Source: Thermomonas sp.
GTDB lineage: Bacteria > Pseudomonadota > Gammaproteobacteria > Xanthomonadales > Xanthomonadaceae
Assembly (NCBI RefSeq): GCF_019104945.1
Contig: NZ_JAHRWW010000018.1
Coordinates: 1 to 41,033 of the forward strand
DNA length: 41,033 bases
Direction of reading: 5' to 3'
The position numbers and the translations under genes are program-made. Shown one piece after another: positions 3 to 14,093 of the stretch (position 1 is the first letter of the stretch; each line of letters starts with the position of its first letter). The notes beneath the pieces were generated by a model. That model did not search any database. It was not told the DNA's origin and was given only the letters and a program-made list of their open reading frames with translations.

Positions 3-812
3 AAAAACATCACCACCTACAACTTGGCACGCATGAACATGCTGCTGCACGGGGTGAAGGATTCCGAGTTCGAGATTTACCACGGCGATACGCTGACCAA
101 CGAATGGGACAGCCTGCGCGAAATGAACCCGGCCAAGCAGCCAAGGTTTGATGCCGTGGTGGCCAACCCGCCGTTCAGCTACCGCTGGGAGCCGACTGAG
201 GCGCTTGGCGAAGATATGCGCTTCAAGAATTACGGGCTGGCACCCAAGTCAGCCGCCGATTTCGCTTTCTTGCTGCACGGCTTCCACTATCTGAAGCCAG
301 ACGGCGTGATGGCCATCATCCTGCCGCACGGCGTGCTGTTCCGTGGTGGTGCGGAAGAGCGCATCCGCACCAAGCTGCTGAAGGATGGCCATATCGATAC
401 GGTGATTGGCCTACCCGCCAACCTGTTCTTCTCCACTGGTATTCCGGTGTGCATTCTGGTGCTGAAGAAATGCAAGAAGCCCGATGACGTGCTGTTCATC
501 AATGCTGCCCAGCACTTCGAGAAAGGCAAGCGGCAAAACAGGCTGCTGCCGGAACACATCGACAAAATTCTCGACACCTATCAGCACCGCCGCGAGGAAG
601 ACCGCTATTCGATGCGCGTATCGATGGAGCGCATCGAGAAGGAAGGCTACAACCTGAACATCTCGCGTTACGTGAGCACGGCGGAGATCGAGGAGGAAAT
701 TGACCTCGGCGCGATGCATTCGGAACTGGTTTCGCTGGAGCAGAAGATCAATGCAGCCACCTCGCGGCACAACGAGTTCCTCAAGGAACTTGGCTTGCCA
801 TTGCTACCGTGA
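3..812 (+). CDS. hsdM: Type I restriction-modification DNA methyltransferase subunit HsdM, C-terminal part (5' end outside window)
   Basis: The reading frame is open from the first complete codon, so only the C-terminal ~269 residues are visible. The motif VVANPPFS is the NPPF motif IV of N6-adenine methyltransferases. The following stretch (ADFAFLLHGFHYLKPDGVMAIILPHGVLFRGG) and the C-terminal tail with EEEIDLGAMHSELVSLEQKI and HNEFLKELGLP are typical of HsdM of type I systems. In such systems HsdM transfers methyl groups from S-adenosylmethionine to adenine in the sequence chosen by HsdS. The stop codon TGA overlaps the GTG/ATG start of the next gene, so the two are translationally coupled. 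No hsdS or hsdR lies downstream in the window; they would have to be upstream, or be missing. The family call is firm. Whether the system is active cannot be judged from here. Confidence 0.93.
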   Translation, partial: KNITTYNLARMNMLLHGVKDSEFEIYHGDTLTNEWDSLREMNPAKQPRFDAVVANPPFSYRWEPTEALGEDMRFKNYGLAPKSAADFAFLLHGFHYLKPDGVMAIILPHGVLFRGGAEERIRTKLLKDGHIDTVIGLPANLFFSTGIPVCILVLKKCKKPDDVLFINAAQHFEKGKRQNRLLPEHIDKILDTYQHRREEDRYSMRVSMERIEKEGYNLNISRYVSTAEIEEEIDLGAMHSELVSLEQKINAATSRHNEFLKELGLPLLP

Positions 813-2053
813 TGGGTACCTCTGTGAACGCCAATAGTTACTTCTCCAGCATCACGAGTGAGATGGCGCGGATAGACGCCGAGCGCGCTTCTTGGCGGAA
901 AGCACTGGCTCAAACCGACATCTTGACCCGGCAGATACGAGAGTTTTCGCAGATCAATTCGGCTTCGGAACAGATGGCCGAAGCGATAAAGGCGTTGCAG
1001 TCCCCTGCAATGACAATCGCGCAGCAGTACCAAGACCAGCTAACTGCATCTTCTTCAGCCATGCAAGCCATCAAGGCTTGGCAGGATGCCGAACGCGCCC
1101 AGAGTGAGCAAATGCGACGGATGCTCGATCCTCTGGATGCCATCCGTAAGGGATTTCTGGCAGACGACGCAACTCAGAAGCTCATCAAGGAATTGACAGC
1201 GGCCAGTTCAATCCAAGACCACATCAAGGAACTGGCAGATCAGACCTCTGGGATAGAGGCGGTGGCCAAAATGATTGCACGGCAGGCCGACGAGTCGCAG
1301 AAACAGCACCAGCGGCTACTCGATAGCGTGGCCGGTACCAGCGGCATCCAGCGCTACCTCAAAGAGTTTGAGGCCGTCAACAAGCAGTGGATGGTACCCA
1401 ACGAAGTGTTGGGCATTGTCGGTTCGTTCAAGGACATTCAAGAGCAGCTTGGCCGGGTGGCTCTGCCAACCATCGACTGGGGATCTGCGGGCGCATTGGC
1501 ACATCTGCTTGGACGCGATGGCATCCAAGAGCAGTTGACTCTGCTTGGCATCAGGCCAGATGGCACGATGCATATGCCTTCTGGGACACAGGAAAGAGGC
1601 ATCTTCAGTCGCAAGCAGGCCGATGCCGTGACTCTTGTGAGCCTGCTACTGACAATTTTGATCTTCATCTATCAAGAGGCGTCGAATCAGCAAGACAAGG
1701 CCAAGGATGAAGCATTCCGGGCGCAGACGACGACCACATTGCAGGTTCAAGCCCAGCAGATTCAAAGCCTGACAGTCCTCATTGGACAGGCGCTGGCGCA
1801 AGCCGCTCATCAACCCGCGGAACGTTTTGTTGTACGTGAGCGCCCAGCAACGGTCAGGGCAGCGCCTGAACACGGAGCCTCCGTGGAGGGAAAGCTGCTG
1901 CCCAATGAAGTGGTGCGCTTTATCGACCGCAAGGGGCGCTGGGTCGAGGTTGAGTATTACCATTGGCTGCACGAAGAGTACCGCACCGGCTGGGTGTTAA
2001 AGCATTACTTGGAGCGAGTCCCCGCAAGCCATTCGAAGCACGATAAGGAATAG
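812..2053 (+). CDS. Membrane-anchored coiled-coil protein with C-terminal SH3-like domain, coupled to hsdM
   Basis: Unrecognised as a named family. Residues ~1-265 are rich in Gln, Ala, Glu and Lys with a heptad-like pattern, suggesting long helices or coiled coil. Residues ~272-290 (AVTLVSLLLTILIFIYQEA) form one hydrophobic membrane segment. A second Gln/Ala-rich helix follows. The last ~65 residues (VVRERPATVRAAPEHGASVEGKLLPNE...WVEVEYY...GWVLKHYLERV) match the pattern of bacterial SH3 (SH3b) domains, with the closing GWVLKHYL. The start is ATG 812, or GTG 809 one codon earlier; both overlap the hsdM stop. The coupling suggests it belongs to the restriction operon as an accessory protein. 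The function is unknown; it might tether or sense something at the membrane. No signal peptide is evident. Confidence 0.75.
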   Translation: MGTSVNANSYFSSITSEMARIDAERASWRKALAQTDILTRQIREFSQINSASEQMAEAIKALQSPAMTIAQQYQDQLTASSSAMQAIKAWQDAERAQSEQMRRMLDPLDAIRKGFLADDATQKLIKELTAASSIQDHIKELADQTSGIEAVAKMIARQADESQKQHQRLLDSVAGTSGIQRYLKEFEAVNKQWMVPNEVLGIVGSFKDIQEQLGRVALPTIDWGSAGALAHLLGRDGIQEQLTLLGIRPDGTMHMPSGTQERGIFSRKQADAVTLVSLLLTILIFIYQEASNQQDKAKDEAFRAQTTTTLQVQAQQIQSLTVLIGQALAQAAHQPAERFVVRERPATVRAAPEHGASVEGKLLPNEVVRFIDRKGRWVEVEYYHWLHEEYRTGWVLKHYLERVPASHSKHDKE

Positions 2054-2232
2054 CGGCCAGTCTGCAAGACTTTTTGCACAAAGGCAGTGACAATAGCATT
2101 GTGCAACTGCGCAACGATATGGTTGATAGTGCAAGCAGTGGGGGGATTACCGTGGCCACAAACGTTTTCTCTAGCTCAAAGCCGATCCACTAGCCTCTAA
2201 GCTGGGCCACATTCCTACTCCACTTTCCAGCA
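2054..2232. other. Intergenic gap between the restriction operon and the giant-recombinase genes
   Basis: About 180 bp with no credible gene. It holds several copies of a TTGCAC/GTGCAA-like word (around 2075, 2099 and 2131) but no convincing -35/-10 pair or terminator. It is the probable junction between the hsdM cluster and the more AT-rich DNA to the right. I found no repeat matching the right side of the integrase region, so no attachment site can be proposed here. Confidence 0.4.
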
Positions 2233-3042
2233 ATGCCCCCGCCAATCCCCACATATCTACTAGACGCACTCGCGCCGCAGATGAAGGCGGGGCGCAAGAC
2301 GTTGCCGTGTGAGGTCCTGCGCAAGCTGCTATTGCAGCAGTCTGTTCACAGCTATAGCAAAGCCTCAATTGATGCTGCGCTTTTACTTGCTGCCACGTAC
2401 CGCAAAGTCTTGCTTGGAGCAAAACAATGGCTGCCTGAAGGAGAGATAGGGCTACCGGCGCGGGCAAAGTGGCAACGTGCTTGCATCAACAATACGCAGC
2501 TCCTTTATCCTGCGGCATTTTGTTTTGCACCGCCGCATAAAGCGCTCGCCGGGCGCCCAAGTTTCGAGCTTTACGCATTTCTTCAAGCCATCCCAGAAGC
2601 ATTTGTTGCACAACTTGTGGAATGGGCACCACCGATTGTGGCAATTGACCCGGTTTCAATTAAAAGCCCTACCCAAGGGATTACTGCAAACCGTCATGGT
2701 GCAAGCTCTGTGCCCGTCTTGGGCAATGTTCTATCGGCATTTCTTGCCAAGGAGGTGCTTCCCAAGACGTTAGTGCGCACGCGCGTCTTGAAAAAATACA
2801 CCAAGGCGCGATTTGGCCTACATGATTTTGTGCAATTGGCCTTGCCAGCGATAGACGCCATCGCGTTGGAAAATTGCAAGCAAATCGTGTGCACTGCACC
2901 GGTTGCAAACGCGCTTTCACTGGGTGTACTTCTGACTGACTGGAGCTTAAGTAACGTCAAGCAAATACGAAGTCGATCTTCACATGAATCATTGGTTTCA
3001 AAGGCTACACGAAGCAGCACAGCAAGCAGCCGGTCTAAGTGA
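2233..3042 (+). CDS. Unrecognised 269-residue protein encoded upstream of, and overlapping, the giant recombinase gene
   Basis: I do not recognise a family. The predicted protein is mostly helical and mixed in composition, without a signal peptide, membrane segment or clear metal-binding motif. It starts at ATG 2233 (MPPPIPTYLLDAL) with no strong ribosome-binding site; ATG 2281 is an alternative start. The last ~20 residues are low-complexity Ser/Arg/Lys and overlap the next gene's first 59 bases in another frame. The extent of the overlap argues for co-expression with the giant recombinase. By analogy with elements that encode a recombinase plus small partners (for example Tn554 TnpC), it could be a DNA-binding or directionality partner, but nothing in the sequence shows this. 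A sequencing frameshift joining the two was considered; frame 2 has a stop at 2948, so a simple fusion is not obvious. Confidence 0.6.
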   Translation: MPPPIPTYLLDALAPQMKAGRKTLPCEVLRKLLLQQSVHSYSKASIDAALLLAATYRKVLLGAKQWLPEGEIGLPARAKWQRACINNTQLLYPAAFCFAPPHKALAGRPSFELYAFLQAIPEAFVAQLVEWAPPIVAIDPVSIKSPTQGITANRHGASSVPVLGNVLSAFLAKEVLPKTLVRTRVLKKYTKARFGLHDFVQLALPAIDAIALENCKQIVCTAPVANALSLGVLLTDWSLSNVKQIRSRSSHESLVSKATRSSTASSRSK

Positions 3043-6000
3043 ATACGCGCTGCTAGACGCGCTGTTTTTAATACGTGCGCCTTATCACCTCAAAGGCATT
3101 CAAGAATGCTGCCGACGGTTAGATGCTCTTGCCCGTAAGCATCCAGCGATGCTGGAAGAGCCCGCTGTTGTAGATATTGCCAAGCACTTTGCAACCTATC
3201 GGGAGATTGCAGCTCTCGAAGGGCTTGATGCACATTTTTCGCAAAATATTGCACCCAGTGAGTCGTCGATACGCACACCGCTTCGGCCTTACACAGGAGA
3301 TAGCGGCATATGCGATTTGCTATTGCTTGATGTGGAAGACGATAACCCCATACAGCGCCAGCACTTTGAGCGCGTACTCGTCTGGTTTTTCTGGCAAGTA
3401 AGCCACCACCAAGCCTCACATCATAAGCGCCAGGACTACGCAAATTACCTTCATCAACGCGAAGATCAAAAACTGCGGCTCAATCAGGGCAGCAGCGTGC
3501 GGATATACAGCACGTTTAGCGCGCTATCGAAATTGGCGGATCCCTCCAATCAGGCACTAGCGCAACGTGTGGCTGCATTATTCGGCGAACCGAGCATTGC
3601 ATCTTCCAAGCAACTTGCACGTCTACTCAAAGGCTTTCTATCCGAACGCGGAGGTCAGACCAAGCCCTTTCCGCTGCGTGATCAGCTGATTGAAAAAGAA
3701 ACAATCCTTGCACTGAATCGAGCATTCCAAACACCTACCGGAACGCAGTTTGACCTACAAGACATCAAACGCCTTTTAAGCCTGATCTGGGGAAATAAAG
3801 AGACCCACACGCGTAGCGATGGCTATATATCCTCGTCTTACGGCAAAAAGCGGCTCGAACACATCCAAGCAAAGCGCTATAAAAGCGGCGTGTCGCTGGT
3901 CACGCAGCCGGTGGATGCAGAACATGAAGAGAAAGGCGCGCTCTCTGACATCTACCTTCAAGACCCAGATAAGGGGCAGACGCTAGGCCTAGAGCAAGAG
4001 GATGCAGAGACTGATGATGCTTTTGAACTTCCTGTCGAGCCAAGCTTTCAGATTTACCTAGGTACAGGTGACCCACTCGCAGCGTGGTATCAAGCTAAAT
4101 CTGCAGCGCACCACATTGAGCTCAACAATGCGCAACTGGCATGGCCCAAACACCGCCTTTCCAATACGGCTGTAAATGCCGTGCTGGCACTTGTTACATC
4201 GCCGGCGAGTAACGATGCCGACACCAATTGGGCGCGCCTTGCCCTTGGCGTGAGCTTGATCACAGGTCGTGCAATCGGTCAGTTTGAGATCACGCTATCG
4301 GGCGAAAGCGATGCGGCCATTCAGATTGACCCAGATAGCCGCGTGGTGACGATTAAGACCGCAAAACCTGCTCTCAAAGACGAAGCGTTCAAGCAACAAG
4401 CGTCTCGTCACTATTTTGAAGAATGGGTCGATGCCCTGCAGCAACGCCTTCCGGAAACGTGGTCCCCTTTGTTAGCACGCATTCCATCTGAAGCCAGATG
4501 CCCACAGGCCAAAACGCTCCGCTCAACGGCACAGTCGCTCCTAGACACTCTCCCTACATATCTTGAGGTTTCCTTAAATGCCGTTGCACGACATATGCAG
4601 CTGCGCTTATTAGCGGTGAGCCATGACGACCTCGCATTTGCCAAACTCATTTCAGATGCAGAGCTGGCCAACGCAACCAATATGTTGCATTACGCCTCGT
4701 TTCGTAAACAGGATGTAGAACGCCTGTGGCGTGAAGCGGCGTATCCGATTGAACTTGAAGCGGTGGATGATGCCGCACACATCCATGCGCGCACCGGAGC
4801 GGCTCAGGGAGTCAGCCCATACTGGATCGAAAAGCGTATTACGACGCTGAAAGAAGCCTTTACAGCCGCAGTTCAGCGTCAGGACTGGATCAAAGCCTAT
4901 AACGTCTCGTGCTTATACACCGCGCTGTGGATGGGTGTTGCAACAGCAGGGCGTGGCGTTTCGAACCCTGTTCCCAGTGTCATTACGTCGGAGGGCTGGG
5001 CCATCGTGCAAGACAAACGCCGCGCCGATGCATCGACCGACCGCTATGTGCCCTTGTCAGACGCGGTTTGTACGCAGCTGACAACCCATATGGCACTCAC
5101 TGAGGCGCTGCGCTTTGTACATCCCGAGTTTGAACAGCTCAGTGCAGGTAACCCTCAGTGCGTGCCGCTCTTCTTTTTTGAAAAGGGAACAACGAGCGCC
5201 ACGACATATCGTGTCAAACACCGCCGAGAGGCTGCTGAGATCAAAGATCTCGTGGGGAATTTTGGCCGCAAGTTGGTGCGGTCATGGCCCCATCAGCTTA
5301 AAGAAGCACCGCTTATTCCCGCACGCTTTAAGGATGCAGGCCTTGGCCATTGGACGCGTGGGCGACACGCATGGGCGCTGACATCAACGTTTCCGGTAAA
5401 TCAGTTTCGAGAGCAATGGCTTGCGCTACAAGGTAAGTTAGAGCAAGACCTTGGGCTGTTGCCTCTGCATTTAGACGATTACTTGCCACCTCAGATTGTC
5501 AGATCGCAATCGATGCGCTTTACGCGAGCATTGTCAGTAGGTGATGCCGCAAACACGTATGTCTTAACGAAAGCAAAGCCCCATGCTCCACCGTCGATAC
5601 CCAGTGAAGTGCTGGAAGCAGAACTGCGCGAGGCATCGGTTTATAAAACATACGAGGCCGTTTTTGAAGCCGAGCCACCCGAGCCGCAGGTGGCAAGAGA
5701 GCTTGTGTATTTGGCGTTAATGCGGCGGCAGATGCACAACCGGCCTGTCACCTTAGCCGTTACGCAGGCTTATTGCGATTTCATCCGGACAAAGACAGGA
5801 ATCCCTATCTTTGCCACAGCCCCTCGCGCGCGCTTTCAACATAATTGGATGGTAGATCAACGGGCGTTCTACGCACTCGCCTATATTGAGCAAGATCTGC
5901 TCGGTGCAATCGAACGTGATTTGAGTCACTTGCCTGATCCCGATCCGGATGTACTTATCAGCATTGGACGGCTACTTGCAGCGCTTAGCTTGCGCGGCGG

Positions 6001-8611
6001 CGTTCTATCGTCAAGACATTTGGATAGCCTGCTTCTCCACTTGGGCAAACCTGTCCCGATCGAGGGCATTGGCGCTGCCAGAGTCATCGCGTTTAAAGTG
6101 CGTTCCGAGCGTACACGTGCTTCGATGCGCAGAACGCTATTTCTCACGCCGTATTTATCGTCTCTGCTCTTGTGTGAGGCAGTCCGTGTTCAGCCATGGT
6201 TACAAGCGGCTTACTTAGCGAGACTCGCCCAACCCAGCCTGCGTGCAAAGCTACGGGAGCGTGCGTTCCGGCGCTATCTCCGCTCATTAGGCGTATCCAC
6301 CCAGCTCTCGCTAGCCCAGTGGCTGGCCGCATGTAGGCAGCGCTTGATGTTACACAGCACACCGTTACTGGCTGCCTATGCCAGTGGCGAACTGCAAACA
6401 GATGATCTCCCCATTACCGAATTGCGTCGTTTAGCCGGACTCAAGCCGGCCGCTGATGATGCGGGAGCAATTGGCATAGATGCAGATGCCCTTGTACGCA
6501 GCGAAGGCCAAGACGAAGACGAAGGGGAAGTAACGTTACCAAACGACTTAAGAAAACCAAACGTCAATTTTGTGCGGTTACTCTGCGGATTTCAATCATC
6601 GCTTGCATCTGAATGGGAAAGAAAAATCACCTTGGTCTTAAAGAAGCAGACTGCGCCGATCAAAGTGTTACTTTGCAATTTTGCACTGCACCTTGTGCAA
6701 ACCTACGCCCCTGAATCAACGGCCGGACACACGTACCGAGGAGACTTTAAGCTCAAAAAGCGCGAGCAGAAAAACATCCAAAAGCACCTGCACGTTGTGT
6801 GGGCTGGGTTGCTGTTGTATGCGGAGCAAGCGCCTGACTGGAGTCTCATTAACGACACGGTATTGATACGACTTGCGGATTTAACTGAAAGCCTTTTCAA
6901 GGCGCGCCAACATCACGGTGCCTGGGCAAGATTCAATCATTTCTTGCAAAGTAAGGCATTGCACGGCCCGTTTGAAGTGGGGGCGATTTCATCAGCCAAG
7001 AGCTCTGTTGTCAGTGCCAAAATTTTATCGGGCCAAGAAGTGGATCGTTTGGTTGCGCTGATTCCTTATGCACAATCTGGTATCTACAACCCACAGACGC
7101 GTCAATTTGCAAAAAATCTGTTTCAAATCGCCTATGCAACGGGCGCACGGCGTGCAGAAGTACAAGGGCTAAGAAGTATCGACTTCGATGGCGATATGCT
7201 GCGTATCCGAACATATGAAGGGCGCACGCTTAAAACGGCCGCCTCCGAACGCGTTGTGCCGCTTGCCATGATTCCAAAGGCACACTTGCAAGCGCTATAT
7301 GCGCAAGACCAAGTCAACAACGGCTCACTATTTGCACTCTCCAGTGATGATGCATTCTACGACAAGCTAGCAAAGGCGATGAAACTGGCGACGGGTGATC
7401 GTGATATTGGTCTTCACCACTTACGCCATACCAAGGCAAGCACGTTACTACTGCGCATGCTTGCAAATGTTGTTCCGCTTCACCTGCTTCAACACGAATT
7501 TCCTTGGCTAAGCAGTTCTCTTCCACCCGAACAAGAAGTTGAGCTATTGCTGGGCAAGGCCGGGCAAACGGGGCAATCCACCAAAGCGATAGCCGCGTTG
7601 CTGGGGCATCTGCATGAGACCACCACCATCAAGCACTACGTTCATACGTTGGGCATCGCATTACATGCACACTATCTAGGCGAATCGAACACCGATTTTG
7701 CCCTCGCTTTTCGTCGTCGCATGCGCGCAGCATCCACGCTTTACCGTCATCGAAAGGCCTATCAAGAAGAAGCACGGCCCGATTTTGAACAAGCTCAAAA
7801 CTATCGCGACATACTTGAATCGATGTTCCTCAAGGCCGCCAGCACGGTGGGAGTAGCCCCTGACACACTGTTGCATATTGACCCAACGCCTCATGAGCTA
7901 GCTCTGGATACAGCGATTGTGACGCCAAGTTCAGCACCGGAGAACCCACAGGGCTGGTCGGTCACTTATTTTGAAAAGCTGCAAGCCTGTTTTTTGGGTG
8001 AACGCACCGACATGCCTGAAGATATCAACAGCATCTCGCAGCGCCTTCACGCAATTGCGGCTATTCCAACACGCAAGCGGCGCCCGAACGTGGCGTCAAT
8101 GCATGTCGTGCCAGAAGGAAAGAAAACCCAATCCCAAAATGTGACCGAAGACAAACGGCACCACATGCCACTAAAAGGAAAAGACGGCACACCATTGCCA
8201 AAACTGCTGTTACCGGGCAAGCAGGTGGCCCATGCTGAAGCTGTTCTTGCATGGCTGGCGTGGATACACCAGCAAGATCCCAAATGTTTTACTTGGCTTA
8301 TGCATGCATGGCGACACACTAGCAATGCACGCTCAGGGAAAATGCCGCTTAAATCCGGTCGGGACGTAGAGATGGCAGCGCAGCTGCATGCGTTGACGCA
8401 CGTCTATCAGACGCAACATTCGCTCAAGCACGTCGATCACTTAGCCCCTCTGAACGAAGAGGCTTCTACCAACACACGCGAGCTTTTGATTTGGATTGAA
8501 GACATCCGGGGCAAGTCACCTGACGCCCAGCCAGCCCGAGGTGGGCGCAATGCTGGCGCGGTTCGCTGGGTGATGACGTGGGTGATGGCAATTGCAATGG
8601 TGAGCGAGTAG
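2984..8611 (+). CDS. Giant (1,875-residue) tyrosine recombinase with several recombinase-like modules
   Basis: The C-terminal third carries a full tyrosine-recombinase catalytic set: R1389 in YATGARRAEVQGL, K1417 in a beta-hairpin ending ERVVPL, H1478-x-x-R1481 in LHHLRHTKAS, G1541-H1542, and nucleophile candidate Y1552 in IKHYVHTLG. About 60 residues separate the HxxR box from GH, more than the ~25 usual in the family, so there is an insertion. Three earlier stretches resemble partial modules: LITGRAIGQF with R429; ATAGRGVSNP with R657, followed by KRRADASTDRYVPL and H789-W-T-R792; and LSLRGGVLSS with R1004, followed by TRASMRRTLFLTP. About 320 residues follow the catalytic Tyr. Ordinary family members have 300-450 residues. 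It presumably cuts and rejoins DNA in mobilising this region. ATG 2984 lies inside the preceding gene. GC content looks lower than in the core genes to the right. Confidence 0.85.
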   Translation: MNHWFQRLHEAAQQAAGLSEYALLDALFLIRAPYHLKGIQECCRRLDALARKHPAMLEEPAVVDIAKHFATYREIAALEGLDAHFSQNIAPSESSIRTPLRPYTGDSGICDLLLLDVEDDNPIQRQHFERVLVWFFWQVSHHQASHHKRQDYANYLHQREDQKLRLNQGSSVRIYSTFSALSKLADPSNQALAQRVAALFGEPSIASSKQLARLLKGFLSERGGQTKPFPLRDQLIEKETILALNRAFQTPTGTQFDLQDIKRLLSLIWGNKETHTRSDGYISSSYGKKRLEHIQAKRYKSGVSLVTQPVDAEHEEKGALSDIYLQDPDKGQTLGLEQEDAETDDAFELPVEPSFQIYLGTGDPLAAWYQAKSAAHHIELNNAQLAWPKHRLSNTAVNAVLALVTSPASNDADTNWARLALGVSLITGRAIGQFEITLSGESDAAIQIDPDSRVVTIKTAKPALKDEAFKQQASRHYFEEWVDALQQRLPETWSPLLARIPSEARCPQAKTLRSTAQSLLDTLPTYLEVSLNAVARHMQLRLLAVSHDDLAFAKLISDAELANATNMLHYASFRKQDVERLWREAAYPIELEAVDDAAHIHARTGAAQGVSPYWIEKRITTLKEAFTAAVQRQDWIKAYNVSCLYTALWMGVATAGRGVSNPVPSVITSEGWAIVQDKRRADASTDRYVPLSDAVCTQLTTHMALTEALRFVHPEFEQLSAGNPQCVPLFFFEKGTTSATTYRVKHRREAAEIKDLVGNFGRKLVRSWPHQLKEAPLIPARFKDAGLGHWTRGRHAWALTSTFPVNQFREQWLALQGKLEQDLGLLPLHLDDYLPPQIVRSQSMRFTRALSVGDAANTYVLTKAKPHAPPSIPSEVLEAELREASVYKTYEAVFEAEPPEPQVARELVYLALMRRQMHNRPVTLAVTQAYCDFIRTKTGIPIFATAPRARFQHNWMVDQRAFYALAYIEQDLLGAIERDLSHLPDPDPDVLISIGRLLAALSLRGGVLSSRHLDSLLLHLGKPVPIEGIGAARVIAFKVRSERTRASMRRTLFLTPYLSSLLLCEAVRVQPWLQAAYLARLAQPSLRAKLRERAFRRYLRSLGVSTQLSLAQWLAACRQRLMLHSTPLLAAYASGELQTDDLPITELRRLAGLKPAADDAGAIGIDADALVRSEGQDEDEGEVTLPNDLRKPNVNFVRLLCGFQSSLASEWERKITLVLKKQTAPIKVLLCNFALHLVQTYAPESTAGHTYRGDFKLKKREQKNIQKHLHVVWAGLLLYAEQAPDWSLINDTVLIRLADLTESLFKARQHHGAWARFNHFLQSKALHGPFEVGAISSAKSSVVSAKILSGQEVDRLVALIPYAQSGIYNPQTRQFAKNLFQIAYATGARRAEVQGLRSIDFDGDMLRIRTYEGRTLKTAASERVVPLAMIPKAHLQALYAQDQVNNGSLFALSSDDAFYDKLAKAMKLATGDRDIGLHHLRHTKASTLLLRMLANVVPLHLLQHEFPWLSSSLPPEQEVELLLGKAGQTGQSTKAIAALLGHLHETTTIKHYVHTLGIALHAHYLGESNTDFALAFRRRMRAASTLYRHRKAYQEEARPDFEQAQNYRDILESMFLKAASTVGVAPDTLLHIDPTPHELALDTAIVTPSSAPENPQGWSVTYFEKLQACFLGERTDMPEDINSISQRLHAIAAIPTRKRRPNVASMHVVPEGKKTQSQNVTEDKRHHMPLKGKDGTPLPKLLLPGKQVAHAEAVLAWLAWIHQQDPKCFTWLMHAWRHTSNARSGKMPLKSGRDVEMAAQLHALTHVYQTQHSLKHVDHLAPLNEEASTNTRELLIWIEDIRGKSPDAQPARGGRNAGAVRWVMTWVMAIAMVSE

Positions 8612-8959: not shown

Positions 8960-9961
8960 TTAGAATCCGACTGCCGTTTTCCCAAACCCTTTTTGTTGCA
9001 GCCCTTGGTTGCGCTTGAAGGAGGAAGATGTTGGTTGGCTGGAATATGCGGGCAGCGTTTTGGCCAACAAATCCTCTAACCGTCGACCGTTGTTGAAGCC
9101 CGCACTCATGCGATCGGCAGCAGCCACCATATCAGCGGCAATAAACAGCGCATGGGAGCGGTCTGATGCTGGCTTGCTGAGGTATTCAAGAATATAGGAC
9201 AGCCCAGCCGCCACCTCCGGCGCCCGCGGTTTTAGCCAAGCCAAATGCGGCTCAAGTAGGCGAAGCGTGTGCTGTTCATGGCTTCCAAGCTTGTAGTGTT
9301 CGGGGCGTGTTTGTGTTGATCCCACGACGCGAAGCTTGCCTAAGTCATGGAAGAAGGCCCCCATTTGGGTAATCGCTAATTCAAGTGGGCTAAGCCTGTC
9401 CTTCGCCAGCTGCGTCACAATCTGTAAGACATCCATGCTGTGCATCAGGTGGCCACCTGGCACGTTATGGTGGCTCTTCATACTGCTTTTGCACGTAGTA
9501 AGGTTGTGCGCAATCTGTGCGTCAAGTAGAACGCGGTTCATAAAGCGGCGTAACGGAGTTTGGCATGTGCCCTCAAGTGCGCCAAGCTCTTCTACCCAGT
9601 GCACCAGTGCTAACAACGCTTCTTGTGCCGCTGCAGGGCAATCGTGCTGTGCAAGTAGCATGGCGGCGTTTTGCACCTCGTTATGGTCCAAGGTGTGAAT
9701 CCTGAGCACATCGGCAATCTTGCGATGGTTCAGCTCCCGCTCGCATAGCTGCACTTGTACGGCCACCGGATATTGATGTGGCAGCTGTTCCAGCAGACCA
9801 GTGCGTTCCCAAACGTAGGCTTTAATGCGCCCCTTGGCATCATCCAATGTCAGTTGCTTGTAGGGATCCCCCGCTTGTGTGAACCTAGATTCGATGTGAC
9901 TCAGGGTGTATTGCCTGGTGTCTTGGGGAGCTGCTGTATTCAAGTCTGTCATCCGTGTCAT
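8960..9961 (-). CDS. OB-fold / HD-domain phosphohydrolase (YhaM-like nuclease family)
   Basis: Residues ~15-100 fit an OB-fold nucleic-acid-binding domain (YTLSHIESRFTQAGDPYKQLTLDDAKGRIKAYVWE). Residues ~160-290 form an HD domain, with HHNVPGGHLMHSMDVL and the metal-binding pair in GAFFHDLGKLR, then HALFIAADMVAAADRM. OB plus HD in this order and size (333 residues) is the layout of the YhaM-type 3'-5' exoribonuclease family, which also degrades single-stranded DNA. Its start overlaps the integrase stop as ATGA, so the two are translationally coupled; ATG 9952 is a shorter alternative. A nuclease or nucleotide phosphohydrolase tied to an integrase is unusual. It may process element RNA or DNA, or serve as cargo. 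The C-terminal ~25 residues look disordered. Confidence 0.78.
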   Translation of the reverse strand: MTRMTDLNTAAPQDTRQYTLSHIESRFTQAGDPYKQLTLDDAKGRIKAYVWERTGLLEQLPHQYPVAVQVQLCERELNHRKIADVLRIHTLDHNEVQNAAMLLAQHDCPAAAQEALLALVHWVEELGALEGTCQTPLRRFMNRVLLDAQIAHNLTTCKSSMKSHHNVPGGHLMHSMDVLQIVTQLAKDRLSPLELAITQMGAFFHDLGKLRVVGSTQTRPEHYKLGSHEQHTLRLLEPHLAWLKPRAPEVAAGLSYILEYLSKPASDRSHALFIAADMVAAADRMSAGFNNGRRLEDLLAKTLPAYSSQPTSSSFKRNQGLQQKGFGKTAVGF

Positions 9962-11229
9962 GCCTGTACTCCATGGGGCTGCATCATGTGCGGTGCTTGT
10001 AAATCACGCTGGCGCAGTATCACAACTGGCGCCGAGTTGAGGTTGGCCGCTAGCAATCGATCCATCGCCGAACCATCTGTTCGGGTGACGTTAGGGACAT
10101 AGCGCGAGTAAGTCTTAAACAGCATCTCAGTATTGGTATGCCCCAGCTGCCTTGCGACCCATTCGGGGTTCTCGCCTGCGGCAAGCCAAAGTGTGGCTGC
10201 GGTATGACGCGTTTGATAGGGGCGCCGTGCATCCAGTTGAAGGTAACGTAACAACGGGTACCACACGCGGTTGGTGAAGTTGTCGAGATCAATTGGCTCA
10301 CCCGCCTGATTGCAGAACACAAATGGCGAGCGCGTCTCAATGCGCTGGCGCTGCGCTATAAGCGCTTCGTACACAGGTTGTGACATAGTGATGTCTCGCT
10401 GCGAGCCGTCGGTCTTGGTGTACTCCATTTGCCCACGCACGATGGCTTGACGTACTTGAATCACGCGGCGGTCGAAGTCCACATGCTTCCATTGCAGCCC
10501 ATTGATCTCGCCGGTACGCATTCCCGTAAAAAAGCGCACAACAAGGTAGTTGCGATAGTCCTCGCGTACAGCCGCCAAGATGGCCTGCACTTCCACTAGC
10601 GAGAACGGCGCGATATCAATCTTTTGTTGTTTGAGCCGCTTAATGCGCAACGTAGGGTTGGGAAAATTGAACCGTTCAGCGGCCTCGCTGAGCACCTGCC
10701 CGTGAATGGCCATCACGCGATTTATTGTTTTTGCTGCAAGTGAAGCCTTGCCATTGCGTCCTGGCAGCTTAGCCAGTTGCGCACGAAAGCTCAGACACTC
10801 TGCCTTCGTAATTTGGCCTACAGGCACATGGCCAAACGCAGGAATCAAATGATGTTCCAAAGTGGAGCGCACGGTTGCAAGGTGCGAACGCCGCCAGAGT
10901 GGTTCGTTCTCCATGAGCCACACGTCGGCAAAGGCTTGATATGAAGGCGTGTCGCTTTGGGGCTGAACATCCTCTGGCTTGTTCACCGAAGTTGGCGTGC
11001 TCTCAGCGCCGTTTTGCGCCTCAAACTTCATTGCCAGCTTGCTGCCAGGAAAGAAGTCGGAATAGCGGAAGCTGCCTAACGCAATTGCTGCCTCGATCTT
11101 CTCCAGCACCTTCTGCATGCGTTTGCGGTTGGATGCGTTGTCGGGAAGAGAAGTCTGTTCGCGACAGCGTTCACCACAAAAGCGGAAGTCAAAAAACAGC
11201 TTTCCATCACGTTGACGAATATTACCCAT
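9958..11229 (-). CDS. int: Tyrosine-type site-specific integrase (phage/island type, 423 residues)
   Basis: The N-terminal ~65 residues (MGNIRQRDGKLFFDFRF...CREQTSLPDNASNRKRMQKVLEKIE) are the arm-binding domain of the DUF3596 type. A SAM-like core-binding domain spans ~95-195. The catalytic domain has R in FFTGMRTGEINGLQW, K in EYTKTDGSQR, H-x-x-R in YQTRHTAA, the GH pair in RQLGHTN, and Tyr in KTYSRYV. It would insert and, with the excisionase, remove the element. It overlaps the upstream excisionase gene by 8 bases and the downstream OB/HD gene by 4 bases. All active-site residues are present, so the enzyme looks intact. Its own target is not identified. Confidence 0.95.
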   Translation of the reverse strand: MGNIRQRDGKLFFDFRFCGERCREQTSLPDNASNRKRMQKVLEKIEAAIALGSFRYSDFFPGSKLAMKFEAQNGAESTPTSVNKPEDVQPQSDTPSYQAFADVWLMENEPLWRRSHLATVRSTLEHHLIPAFGHVPVGQITKAECLSFRAQLAKLPGRNGKASLAAKTINRVMAIHGQVLSEAAERFNFPNPTLRIKRLKQQKIDIAPFSLVEVQAILAAVREDYRNYLVVRFFTGMRTGEINGLQWKHVDFDRRVIQVRQAIVRGQMEYTKTDGSQRDITMSQPVYEALIAQRQRIETRSPFVFCNQAGEPIDLDNFTNRVWYPLLRYLQLDARRPYQTRHTAATLWLAAGENPEWVARQLGHTNTEMLFKTYSRYVPNVTRTDGSAMDRLLAANLNSAPVVILRQRDLQAPHMMQPHGVQA

Positions 11230-12088: not shown

Positions 12089-12165
<77 letters not shown>

Positions 12166-12353: not shown

Positions 12354-13502
12354 TCACTGAGAGAGCAGTTCAACGTAGGCTTGGTAACTGTAACTCCGGT
12401 TTTTTTTCTGCCCGGTCATTTCCGTCACGATGCCCAACTCTTCCAGCACCTTGACCGCCGCCGTCGCCGTGGGGAAGCTGGTATCGAGATGCTGGCGAAC
12501 GCGCTCGATGGTGAAGCGCGGCATCATTGGCAGCATCTCAAACAGCCGGTAGCTGGCCGGGCCTGCTTTGACCGATTGCAAAAGGCGCCTGCGATCTGTA
12601 GCCACCAGACTGGCGACCTCGATGATGTTTTTTTCAGCGTCGCCCGCAGCGGTGGCGACACCTTCCAGAAAGAAAATCACCCAGGATTCCCAGTCGCCCT
12701 CCGTGCGGATGACCGACAAGCGACGGTAATACTCAGCTTGGTGTTGTTTGAGGTAGCCGCTGAGGTACATCAAAGGCTCCGACAGCAGTCCCCAGTGTTC
12801 AAACAGTGCCGCGATCAGGAGGCGGCCAATGCGTCCGTTGCCGTCAAGAAACGGATGGATGGTTTCAAACTGCGCGTGGATGAGCGCCACCTTGACCATC
12901 GGTGGCAGATCCGTCGCTTCGTCGTGGATGAAGCGCTCCATGTCGGCCAGCAGTGTGGGAACGTGCTCCGGCGGCGGTGGGACGAAAACCGCATTGCCGG
13001 GCCGTGTGCCACCAATCCAGTTTTGCGACCGACGCAACTCCCCGGGTTGTTTTCCTGCGCCGCGAGCCCCATCCAGAAGGCGTCGATGCGCCTCGCACAA
13101 CAGTCTCACGCTAATCGGCAGCCCATTCGGATCGCGCAGTTGCTCCTGCGTCCAGCGGAAAGCGCGCAGGTAGTTGGTGACTTCTTCCACGTCGTCGCTG
13201 TTGCTGACCTTGAAGCCAGCTTCCTCGTCGAACAGATCGGTCAGCGTGGCCTGCGTACCCTCGATCTGCGATGTGAGCAGGGCTTCCTTGCGGATGGCGC
13301 TGTACAAGAGCCAATCGACCGAAGGTACCAAGCCAGACACGCCCGCCAAACGTGCGAGCGCGAGCTCTGCCAGCCGATTGAGGTCAGTGAACACCTCGGG
13401 TGAGAGGGCTGGCTCAGCTGGCGGCAAGGTGTGGGGTACGAATGCGCGCACCGATTCGCCCAGTGTCGTGGAAATCGAATAGGTTCCGGTGGTGCGTGCC
13501 AT
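12354..13502 (-). CDS. Fic-family protein (class II, N-terminal inhibitory motif)
   Basis: The 382-residue protein has an N-terminal segment with TSQIEGTQAT (residues ~75-85), matching the (S/T)xxxE(G/N) inhibitory helix of class II Fic proteins. The catalytic motif HPFLDGNGRIGR follows at about residue 212, with all key residues present. The last ~100 residues look like a winged helix (TATAAVKVLEELGIVTEMTGQKKNRSYSY). Fic enzymes usually transfer AMP to a hydroxyl of a target protein and are held inactive by the Glu of the inhibitory motif. The target is unknown. The gene stands alone between tRNA-fMet and ssrA, flanked by a direct repeat, so it is probably acquired. AT-rich repeats just upstream (13530-13580, two AATTAAAG words) may hold its promoter and operator. 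Confidence 0.92.
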   Translation of the reverse strand: MARTTGTYSISTTLGESVRAFVPHTLPPAEPALSPEVFTDLNRLAELALARLAGVSGLVPSVDWLLYSAIRKEALLTSQIEGTQATLTDLFDEEAGFKVSNSDDVEEVTNYLRAFRWTQEQLRDPNGLPISVRLLCEAHRRLLDGARGAGKQPGELRRSQNWIGGTRPGNAVFVPPPPEHVPTLLADMERFIHDEATDLPPMVKVALIHAQFETIHPFLDGNGRIGRLLIAALFEHWGLLSEPLMYLSGYLKQHQAEYYRRLSVIRTEGDWESWVIFFLEGVATAAGDAEKNIIEVASLVATDRRRLLQSVKAGPASYRLFEMLPMMPRFTIERVRQHLDTSFPTATAAVKVLEELGIVTEMTGQKKNRSYSYQAYVELLSQ

Positions 13503-13692: not shown

Positions 13693-13752
13693 AGGCGCGA
13701 ATAAAAAACCCCAACCGAGAACGGTTGGGGTTTCATTATTGGTGGAGGTGGG
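13692..13752. repeat. ssrA-proximal copy of the direct repeat (contains the tmRNA 3' end)
   Basis: This is the intact partner of the repeat at 12222-12281. It covers the ssrA terminator and the last bases of tmRNA (GGTGGAGGTGGG on the plus strand). The 3' end of ssrA is a well-known integration target for tyrosine-recombinase elements. Confidence 0.6.
13703..13733 (-). terminator. Intrinsic terminator of ssrA
   Basis: On the minus strand the stem CCCCAACCG / CGGTTGGGG is followed by six T. It begins a few bases after the tmRNA 3' end. Confidence 0.85.
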
Positions 13753-14093
13753 CGGAATTGAACCGCCGTCCGAAGGCACTCCATGCCCGGCACTACATGC
13801 TTAGCTCGGTGTTTGATCTCGAATGTTGGCAACACACCGTGCGAAGCACACCAACACCCATACCCGCTAAGTTTCGAATCCGGTTGGCGGGTCGCCACCG
13901 GAACCTATCCTGTGATAATGACCCTACATCCACGAGCACAGGCACAAGTGGGTTCGGGGCTAGGCCTTAAGCGGCCAGAGCGTAGTTGTCGTCGTTGGCA
14001 ACTATAAGTTTTGCAGCTGGTTTTACGAGGAAAGCTACCCCCTCGGCATGCGCCGTGCGATTTCGCAACCCCCGTCGAAGCCAGTACACCCCC
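13740..14093 (-). ncRNA. ssrA: Transfer-messenger RNA (tmRNA)
   Basis: The 354-nt RNA has a 5' end GGGGGTG pairing with the 3' CACCTCC to form the tRNA-like acceptor stem (one G-U pair), an encoded CCA, and a T-arm read as GGTTCAATTCC near the 3' end. The 5' domain contains GGCTTCGACGGGGG, the conserved tmRNA start. The open reading frame at 13967-13999 encodes the tag ANDDNYALAA followed by TAA. tmRNA with SmpB rescues stalled ribosomes and marks the incomplete protein for proteolysis. The tag is the one I recall for Pseudomonas. A promoter and a terminator are both visible. Confidence 0.97.
13967..13999 (-). CDS. tmRNA proteolysis-tag open reading frame
   Basis: It encodes ANDDNYALAA and stops at TAA, starting with the resume codon GCC. 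The final ALAA is the signal recognised by ClpXP and related proteases. Confidence 0.93.
   Translation of the reverse strand, partial: ANDDNYALAA

Follow-up and report, generated by a model that had tools for sequence, protein, structure and literature searches.

Flp delivers its tyrosine in trans, and the Gamma-Mobile-Trio is a recombinase-based island with defence cargo. In GInt islands (ginABCD), three integrase genes are followed by ginD, and GinC lacks the first Arg (PMC5385486). SE elements carry four genes in the order intA-tfp-intB-srap; Tfp is a recombinase-fold partner without the full catalytic set beside the large IntB, and a non-catalytic role, binding DNA or holding the synapse, has been proposed for it (PMC10214605). 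The three genes of recombinase-in-trio (RIT) elements encode proteins of 315-410 amino acids that all have the catalytic Tyr (PMC10214605). Here we describe a gene of 1875 codons, termed the giant, in a 41,033-nucleotide stretch of DNA from Thermomonas sp. (contig NZ_JAHRWW010000018.1; the window). The giant is a real recombinase that joins in one chain what many relatives encode as a two-gene system: an N-half with two recombinase-like modules (modules 1 and 2) and a C-half with a complete catalytic domain (module 4). Judged from conservation and profile alignments, the catalytic residues of the N-half are divided between its two modules, module 1 having kept the tyrosine and module 2 the pocket. 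Coordinates are collected in Table 1.

The giant had been proposed, in an earlier note on this DNA, as a single frame (2984-8611) holding one intact and three partial recombinase modules. The frame itself was confirmed, and it is a maintained gene, because it has plasmid relatives at about 30% identity and a relative in another genome (a frame of 1832 amino acids matching giant residues 18-1871) and because the pooled ratio of nonsynonymous to synonymous substitution rates (dN/dS) is 0.35. This ratio was obtained for the whole gene from 21 pairs of 7 Acinetobacter copies; its parts ranged from 0.24 to 0.49, with 0.35 for module 1, 0.29 for module 2 and 0.24 for module 4.

In the C-half, PF00589 matched residues 1350-1506 (expectation value, E, 5.8e-11), the sole Pfam match over cut-off in the giant. 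The catalytic set assigned to this part by the earlier note was upheld: in an alignment of 64 C-halves (two shorter than 600 amino acids were left out), R1389, K1417, H1478, R1481 and H1542 were invariant in all rows, and Y1552 was Y in each of the 63 rows with a letter at this position. When the C-half model was compared with known structures by Foldseek, six matches were obtained at E <= 0.001 and all were XerH (XerH E 5.7e-5). With the Arg-Lys-His-Arg-His-Tyr set and a catalytic-domain fold, the C-half is a tyrosine recombinase. Its active site is presumably an ordinary one; the residues are present and activity would follow from them.

Relatives were sought in plasmids, genomes and viruses. 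A tblastn search with the giant identified 43 plasmid records (42 from Acinetobacter and 1 from Sphingobium), 37 of which align to 80% or more of its length with about 30% identity, and a genome scan gave 14 loci, including Hydrocarboniphaga effusa AP103, a Rhodanobacteraceae metagenome-assembled genome (MAG) and a gammaproteobacterial MAG. Within the class, 11 of 369 genomes matched, the giant's own included, mostly over part of the length and, besides its own genome, once over the full length. The N-half profile matched 17 of 398 genomes of the phylum (its own genome and one frame of 311 amino acids included), 17 of 74 genomes of one family and 39 of 201 of another; by their length (about 290-420 amino acids, with one fragment of 91), 8 of these 17 and at least 3 of these 39 concern frames outside the giant family. 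No relative was found in phage records or viral contigs. Among the papers listed by searches of an open-licence library, in which subscription journals are mostly missing, none was recognised as a description of this family, nor of any divided active site.

The frames of the fetched loci were then searched with the N-half and C-half profiles, near-copies being counted. Among 69 loci with an N-half, 41 have separate adjacent genes for the two halves, 25 have one frame and 3 are cut off (a scripted count gave 44 split loci, with the three cut-off ones included), which bears out the proposal that the giant corresponds to separately encoded recombinase genes. C-half sequence adjoins the N-half in 66 of the 69 loci, the remaining three (L021, L039 and L114) ending at a contig or locus edge, and the order N-half then C-half is the same in split and fused loci. 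The two genes of a split pair lie on the same strand, and the C-half frame, taken from stop to stop, begins 7-346 bases ahead of the stop of the N-half. Split relatives have their boundary near residue 830-880, and the refuting case named in the earlier note, homologues ending near residue 1330, was not seen. Three of the 25 fused loci (L023, L070, L149) hold only the N-half end in that frame and one (L151) begins at the contig end; L039 shares 80-85% identity with the majority of the Acinetobacter copies and is more probably a truncated fused copy than a split one. In trees of 64 and of 46 rows the fused frames form two clades, that of the window and a second one (clade 2). The starred branches force two changes between split and fused forms in the 46-row tree and only one in the 64-row tree, and the approximately unbiased test does not reject a single fused clade (p 0.152, 46 rows). 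One split copy (L116) is decayed, with several stops in its N-half.

The N-halves were aligned in 63 rows, six shorter than 600 amino acids being left out. With a median pairwise identity of 15.6%, the alignment has 505 columns occupied in at least 95% of rows and only eight without any variation: Y570, G605, R657, K678, R687, R762, G788 and H789. Five of these are the Y, R, K, R and H expected for one active site, and they follow one another in the order Y570 - R657 - K678 - R762 - H789 in every N-half; D677 (62/63), N759 (61/63) and S801 (56/63) are nearly invariant. When the modules were aligned separately, Y570 was the sole invariant column of module 1 (42 rows) and the other seven were recovered in module 2 (40 rows). 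In no single domain of the N-half is the catalytic set complete and canonically ordered, as Y570 precedes the pocket, and no N-half has a Tyr at H789+9 or +10.

Profiles of both modules were compared with the sequences of the PDB. For module 2 (profile A10), all seven matches up to E 10 were recombinases. The best was XerD (E 2.8e-6 for the whole chain and 2.8e-5 for the best single stretch), in an alignment that spans the Arg I helix, the strand Lys region, N759xxR762 and the LGH box and in which R657-H789 fall on the Arg/Lys/Arg/His pocket. For module 1 (profile A9), five matches were obtained and the first four were Xer proteins: the XerC-like 4a8e (E 1.2e-4 for the whole chain, 0.032 for the best single stretch), XerA (0.035), XerH (0.07) and XerD (0.2). 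In all four printed alignments, Y570 sits on the tyrosine of the IYT motif, which we take to be the catalytic tyrosine of the Xer chains. Modules 1 and 2 are hence homologous in sequence to tyrosine recombinases, module 1 more weakly per stretch. Because the alignments place Y570 on the Xer tyrosine and R657-H789 on the XerD pocket, module 1 appears to have kept the nucleophile and module 2 the pocket, a loss that is complementary as far as sequence can tell. Family libraries contributed little: Pfam had no match for the 3 N-halves scanned and PHROGs none for 2, while an NCBIfam scan of 23 N-halves gave 3 weak XerA matches (best E 0.0083) and two single chance-level matches.

These results changed the picture of the upstream modules, which the earlier note had based on Arg boxes at R429, R657 and R1004 and on H789-x-x-R792. 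R657 stood, R429 was retained in part (R in 41/63) and R1004, which is R in only 15 of 64 C-halves, was rejected as a recombinase arginine. H789 is conserved as described, but the reading of H789-x-x-R792 as box II (HxxR) was abandoned, since the XerD alignment makes N759-x-x-R762 box II and assigns H789 to the LGH box; R792 is nearly invariant in the 12 closest N-halves and variable in the wider set. Two of the three proposed upstream modules were therefore found recombinase-like by profile and the one around R1004 was not. For this stretch (residues 955-1160), an alignment of 45 rows had no invariant column, and the profile search against the PDB up to E 10 gave no recombinase, the only match being CREB-binding protein (E 0.93). 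The predicted succession of helices, three strands and helices is compatible with a recombinase fold and proves nothing. The claim that three members had lost their catalytic residues and become DNA-binding modules proved too simple, as module 2 keeps R, K, R and H and module 1 the Tyr.

The surroundings of the relatives indicate that the giant sits in a mobile element, a link that had been suggested before. In blastn comparisons, 15 Acinetobacter copies have a common left boundary at about -820 from the giant start (with an interruption and a shift in L017). The boundary, where the element has the approximate and variable terminus ATTTAGTATAAAAATAAAGTTAGTAAATAA, abuts about 11 different printed flanks, some copies sharing a flank. 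A plasmid site behind uvrA is occupied in L032 and L173 and empty in L171 and L172, the L171 record carrying a copy elsewhere. In four other loci of the window clade (L019, which is the same as L037; L026; L034; and L036), the 5' half of a transfer RNA gene (tRNA-Met), presumably of the initiator type, stops where the element starts at the anticodon-loop 7-mer CTCATAA; the 5' half is shorter in L026 than in the other junction loci. An intact tRNA-Met copy in genome G152, with matching upstream and 5'-half sequence, reveals the junction, where two stem bases are absent. In clade 2, a tRNA-Met 3' half in reverse orientation lies at the same 7-mer in L144 and L145, L146 and L018 have the 7-mer, about equally far away, and no clear tRNA half, and L070 has a 3' half without the 7-mer. 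On average 0.13 matches to the 7-mer occurred per random stretch of 1360 bases (345 stretches). Seven of the 44 rows of the scripted split set have an upstream 7-mer, none beside a visible tRNA half in the printed context. Of the 11 annotated plasmid copies that were inspected over about 5-20 kb downstream, four (L014, L015, L017, L080) have BREX clusters following the giant, and the other seven show other genes. A pdif/XerCD site was also considered for the left end in Acinetobacter, and a pattern search showed no such site at the boundary. L015 has two copies of the left terminus 2.2 kb apart (at 4991 and 7190), perhaps left over from a second insertion. Three split operons have a tRNA gene no more than about 700 bases from one of their ends (L021, 3783-3859, Val; L065, 6350-6426, Val; L073, 6752-6826, Met), perhaps a further attachment site in each case.

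A small gene, U, precedes the giant. At all 15 loci of the window clade that were searched, a U homologue lies immediately before the giant (in L019 only after iteration and in L017 in two pieces), and in certain Acinetobacter copies the overlap with the giant is 4 bases. In an automatic search some upstream frame was recorded at 54 loci; several are clearly unrelated, and a small gene often precedes the N-half. The U protein of the window has no Pfam family. A ParB-like motif could be seen by eye in the small proteins of split operons, where Pfam ParB_N matched 2 of 17 (best E 0.0086), and the two groups of small proteins align at E 0.0076 with a probability of only 5%. L147 and L150, of clade 2, have a different upstream gene of 294-308 amino acids, unlike the small partner gene by eye.

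The best explanation of these results as a whole, to which we give about an even chance (0.5), is that the giant is the recombinase of an integrating mobile island, with N-half and C-half joined in one chain, a composite active site in the N-half, an ordinary one in the C-half and the small upstream protein as an accessory factor. At the level of sequence, the N-half consists of two recombinase domains in tandem whose losses complement each other, module 1 having lost the pocket and module 2 the tyrosine. Tyr570 would, we infer, reach the pocket of module 2 (Arg657/Lys678/Arg762/His789), within one chain or between two, to make up one active site. One giant chain would then have two active sites, and two chains could form a synapse instead of four. 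In the four relatives mentioned above, where the left junction is observed, the element would have entered a tRNA-Met gene at the anticodon loop. The composite site would resemble Flp in that the tyrosine is supplied by a domain other than that of the pocket; unlike the giant, which divides the set over two domains of one chain, Flp protomers are identical and each has the full set. A further step would be to regard the N-half as a novel type of tyrosine recombinase active site, shared out permanently between two tandem domains by complementary loss, and each chain as one half of a synapse, preassembled with two unlike sites, so that two chains replace four protomers; this is tentative and in our view less likely than not. 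Should Y570 serve the module 2 pocket as its nucleophile, this would be a naturally divided active site whose parts lie in separate domains and can be mutated apart; the coupling of active and inactive protomers in a recombinase synapse would become directly testable, and a widespread N-half family unnamed in standard libraries would gain a role. The giant would still be a tyrosine recombinase, the surprising part being the exact complementarity and the invariance of Y570, and its elements can carry defence genes and enter tRNA-Met genes.

A number of observations weigh against this explanation. Y570 could be structural and not a nucleophile. A Tyr is present besides Y570 at H789+8, near the usual position, in 8 of 63 N-halves (L018 and clade 2), and others occur at +11 in 15 and at +6 in 6. 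The matches of module 1 are modest, as one of four Xer chains passes E 0.001 and its best stretch reaches 0.032. Direct profile-profile comparisons between the modules score weakly; against module 4 the probabilities are 8.5% for module 1 and 57% for module 2, and 41% and 30%, respectively, when smaller alignments were used. The N-half model is of low confidence (mean predicted local distance difference test score 64.5) and had no Foldseek match at E <= 0.001, XerH standing at rank 21 with a non-significant E of 6.5. As for the island, the 7-mer junction is present in only 4 of 14 rows of the window clade (it is absent from the window, L039 and eight Acinetobacter rows) and in 4 of 12 rows of clade 2. 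The copy in the window itself lacks a tRNA junction, a right end of the element was searched for and not found, and no excision or circle was seen.

Close to the view of the earlier note is the alternative that module 4 alone cleaves and that the two recombinase domains of the N-half are catalytically dead and serve to bind DNA or to hold the synapse, with R, K, R and H gripping the phosphate and Y570 being structural. It is a real possibility, though short of probable. Module 4 alone is complete, the box II His is replaced by Asn in 61 of 63 N-halves, the usual tyrosine positions behind H789 are empty, and Tfp and GinC are published recombinase-fold partners without the full catalytic set (PMC10214605, PMC5385486). 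A dead module is not expected, however, to keep exactly the missing member, and Y570 is as invariant (63/63) as the catalytic residues and falls on the Xer tyrosine, whereas Y1132, compared with it by eye, is Y in 29 of 64 rows only. The constant residue order noted above would also result if the N-half were a single circularly permuted catalytic domain, with the tyrosine helix before the Arg I helix and no second domain in module 1. This we consider improbable, since the match between module 1 and the Xer chains continues on the N-terminal side of the Tyr over the box II helix and reaches, very weakly, the Arg I region (4.9 bits for domain 2 of 4a8e), and since a helix-TGR-strands-helices order is predicted for residues 394-585 in the N-half model, where G428 is G in 53 of 63 N-halves besides the R429 already described.

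Gene order bears most directly on the idea of the earlier note that a trio had been fused or, more broadly, that three or four recombinases were fused and three of the modules died. Two upstream modules are recombinase-like, and at L154, alone among the loci compared, an ordinary recombinase frame of 350 amino acids (1714-2763, forward strand) immediately precedes the N-half gene. The remaining split loci have two large genes, usually after a small one, which largely refutes this fusion; the R1004 module is without sequence support, and the upstream catalytic residues were kept selectively and not lost at random. We regard it as very improbable. The lack of any Pfam, NCBIfam or PHROG match over most of the protein would agree with a long frame that is spurious or in decay and ends in a genuine integrase domain, but this reading is already refuted by full-length relatives in several gammaproteobacterial groups, by the dN/dS and by the invariant catalytic columns, and can practically be dismissed.

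Compared with described systems, the giant is closest in its domains to Xer-type recombinases (XerC, XerD, XerA, XerH; PF00589): module 4 matches them by sequence and fold with the full catalytic set, and modules 1 and 2 match in parts. It differs from them in that the fused chains of its family measure about 1680-2000 amino acids, unite N-half and C-half and have N-half residues divided over two domains. GInt islands likewise have several recombinase-related proteins and a small one in an operon, one protein with a partial catalytic set, variable cargo and site-specific insertion. By their description they are set apart by gene order, the giant family having two large genes with the small gene at the 5' end where seen (L154 being an exception), and GinC is without the first Arg whereas module 2 keeps its Arg in 63/63. 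With SE elements the giant shares a recombinase-fold partner lacking the full catalytic set beside a large recombinase, and differs in gene order and in the number of genes, which is four in SE elements. Membership in this group was rejected, as in two pSEA1 operons that resemble SE elements, recognised by size and order only, neither the Tfp-like nor the IntB-like frames were matched significantly by the N-half and C-half profiles. The IntA-like frame of pSEA1 matched module 4 (E 6e-5), and the best other score was 9.3 bits, for module 1 on a frame of 723 amino acids. As in RIT elements and, by description, Tn554, two or three recombinase genes act together; the giant family departs from RIT in the sizes and number of its genes.

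The kinship with Gamma-Mobile-Trio sets suggested by the earlier note extends to the general type, a recombinase-based island with defence cargo, but membership was rejected, as the GmtY model NF040693 (441 positions) did not match at giant loci. Its search against 25 C-halves gave 1 match (E 0.086), 10 genomes with the giant family had no GmtY match at these loci among the matches listed, and no Gmt model in NCBIfam matched 23 N-halves at E 1, the presence of GmtX and GmtZ models in the library not having been checked. At L075, in genome G152, which holds the L019 relative, GmtY scored above cut-off on another contig.

Table 1. Features of the giant locus in the window (residues are numbered along the giant)
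Feature	Position	Strand	Evidence or remark
Small gene U, 269 amino acids, partner of the giant	2233..3042	+	Overlaps the giant by 59 bases
Giant fused recombinase gene, 1875 amino acids	2984..8611	+	Single uninterrupted frame; full-length relatives
N-terminal helical region of the N-half, residues 1-379	2984..4120	+	Secondary structure of model m9547e7c62f5c, confidence partly low
Module 1, residues 380-597, predicted degenerate recombinase catalytic domain retaining the tyrosine	4121..4774	+	Profile against Xer chains
Codon of Y570, invariant (63/63), on the IYT-motif tyrosine of four Xer-type chains	4691..4693	+	
Module 2, residues 600-835, with R657, K678, N759xxR762 and H789, without Tyr at H+9/H+10	4781..5488	+	Profile against XerD
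So-called module 3, residues 955-1160 (R1004 region), putative only	5846..6463	+	Helix-strand order; no recombinase match
Module 4, residues 1320-1580, complete catalytic domain (R1389, K1417, H1478, R1481, H1542, Y1552)	6941..7723	+	PF00589, conservation, Foldseek XerH
C-terminal tail, residues 1581-1875, length differing among split relatives	7724..8608	+	Frame lengths, profile ends
Intact tRNA-Met gene with CTCATAA anticodon loop, 3.5 kb past the giant	12089..12165	+	Link to the window giant putative

Several other genes of the window lie around the giant. The contig starts inside a type I methylase (HsdM) gene (24-812, forward strand), which is followed by a gene for a protein of 414 amino acids with an SH3 domain (809-2053, forward strand); both are possible defence cargo. 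Behind the giant, an HD-domain protein (8960-9961, reverse strand) has weak similarity to the exoribonuclease YhaM, below the model cut-off. An ordinary arm-type integrase (9958-11229, reverse strand) near the tRNA-Met gene, a few kb from the giant, looks like part of a second island at the same tRNA. Further on, a Fic-family protein (12354-13502, reverse strand) adjoins a transfer-messenger RNA gene (13740-14093, reverse strand).

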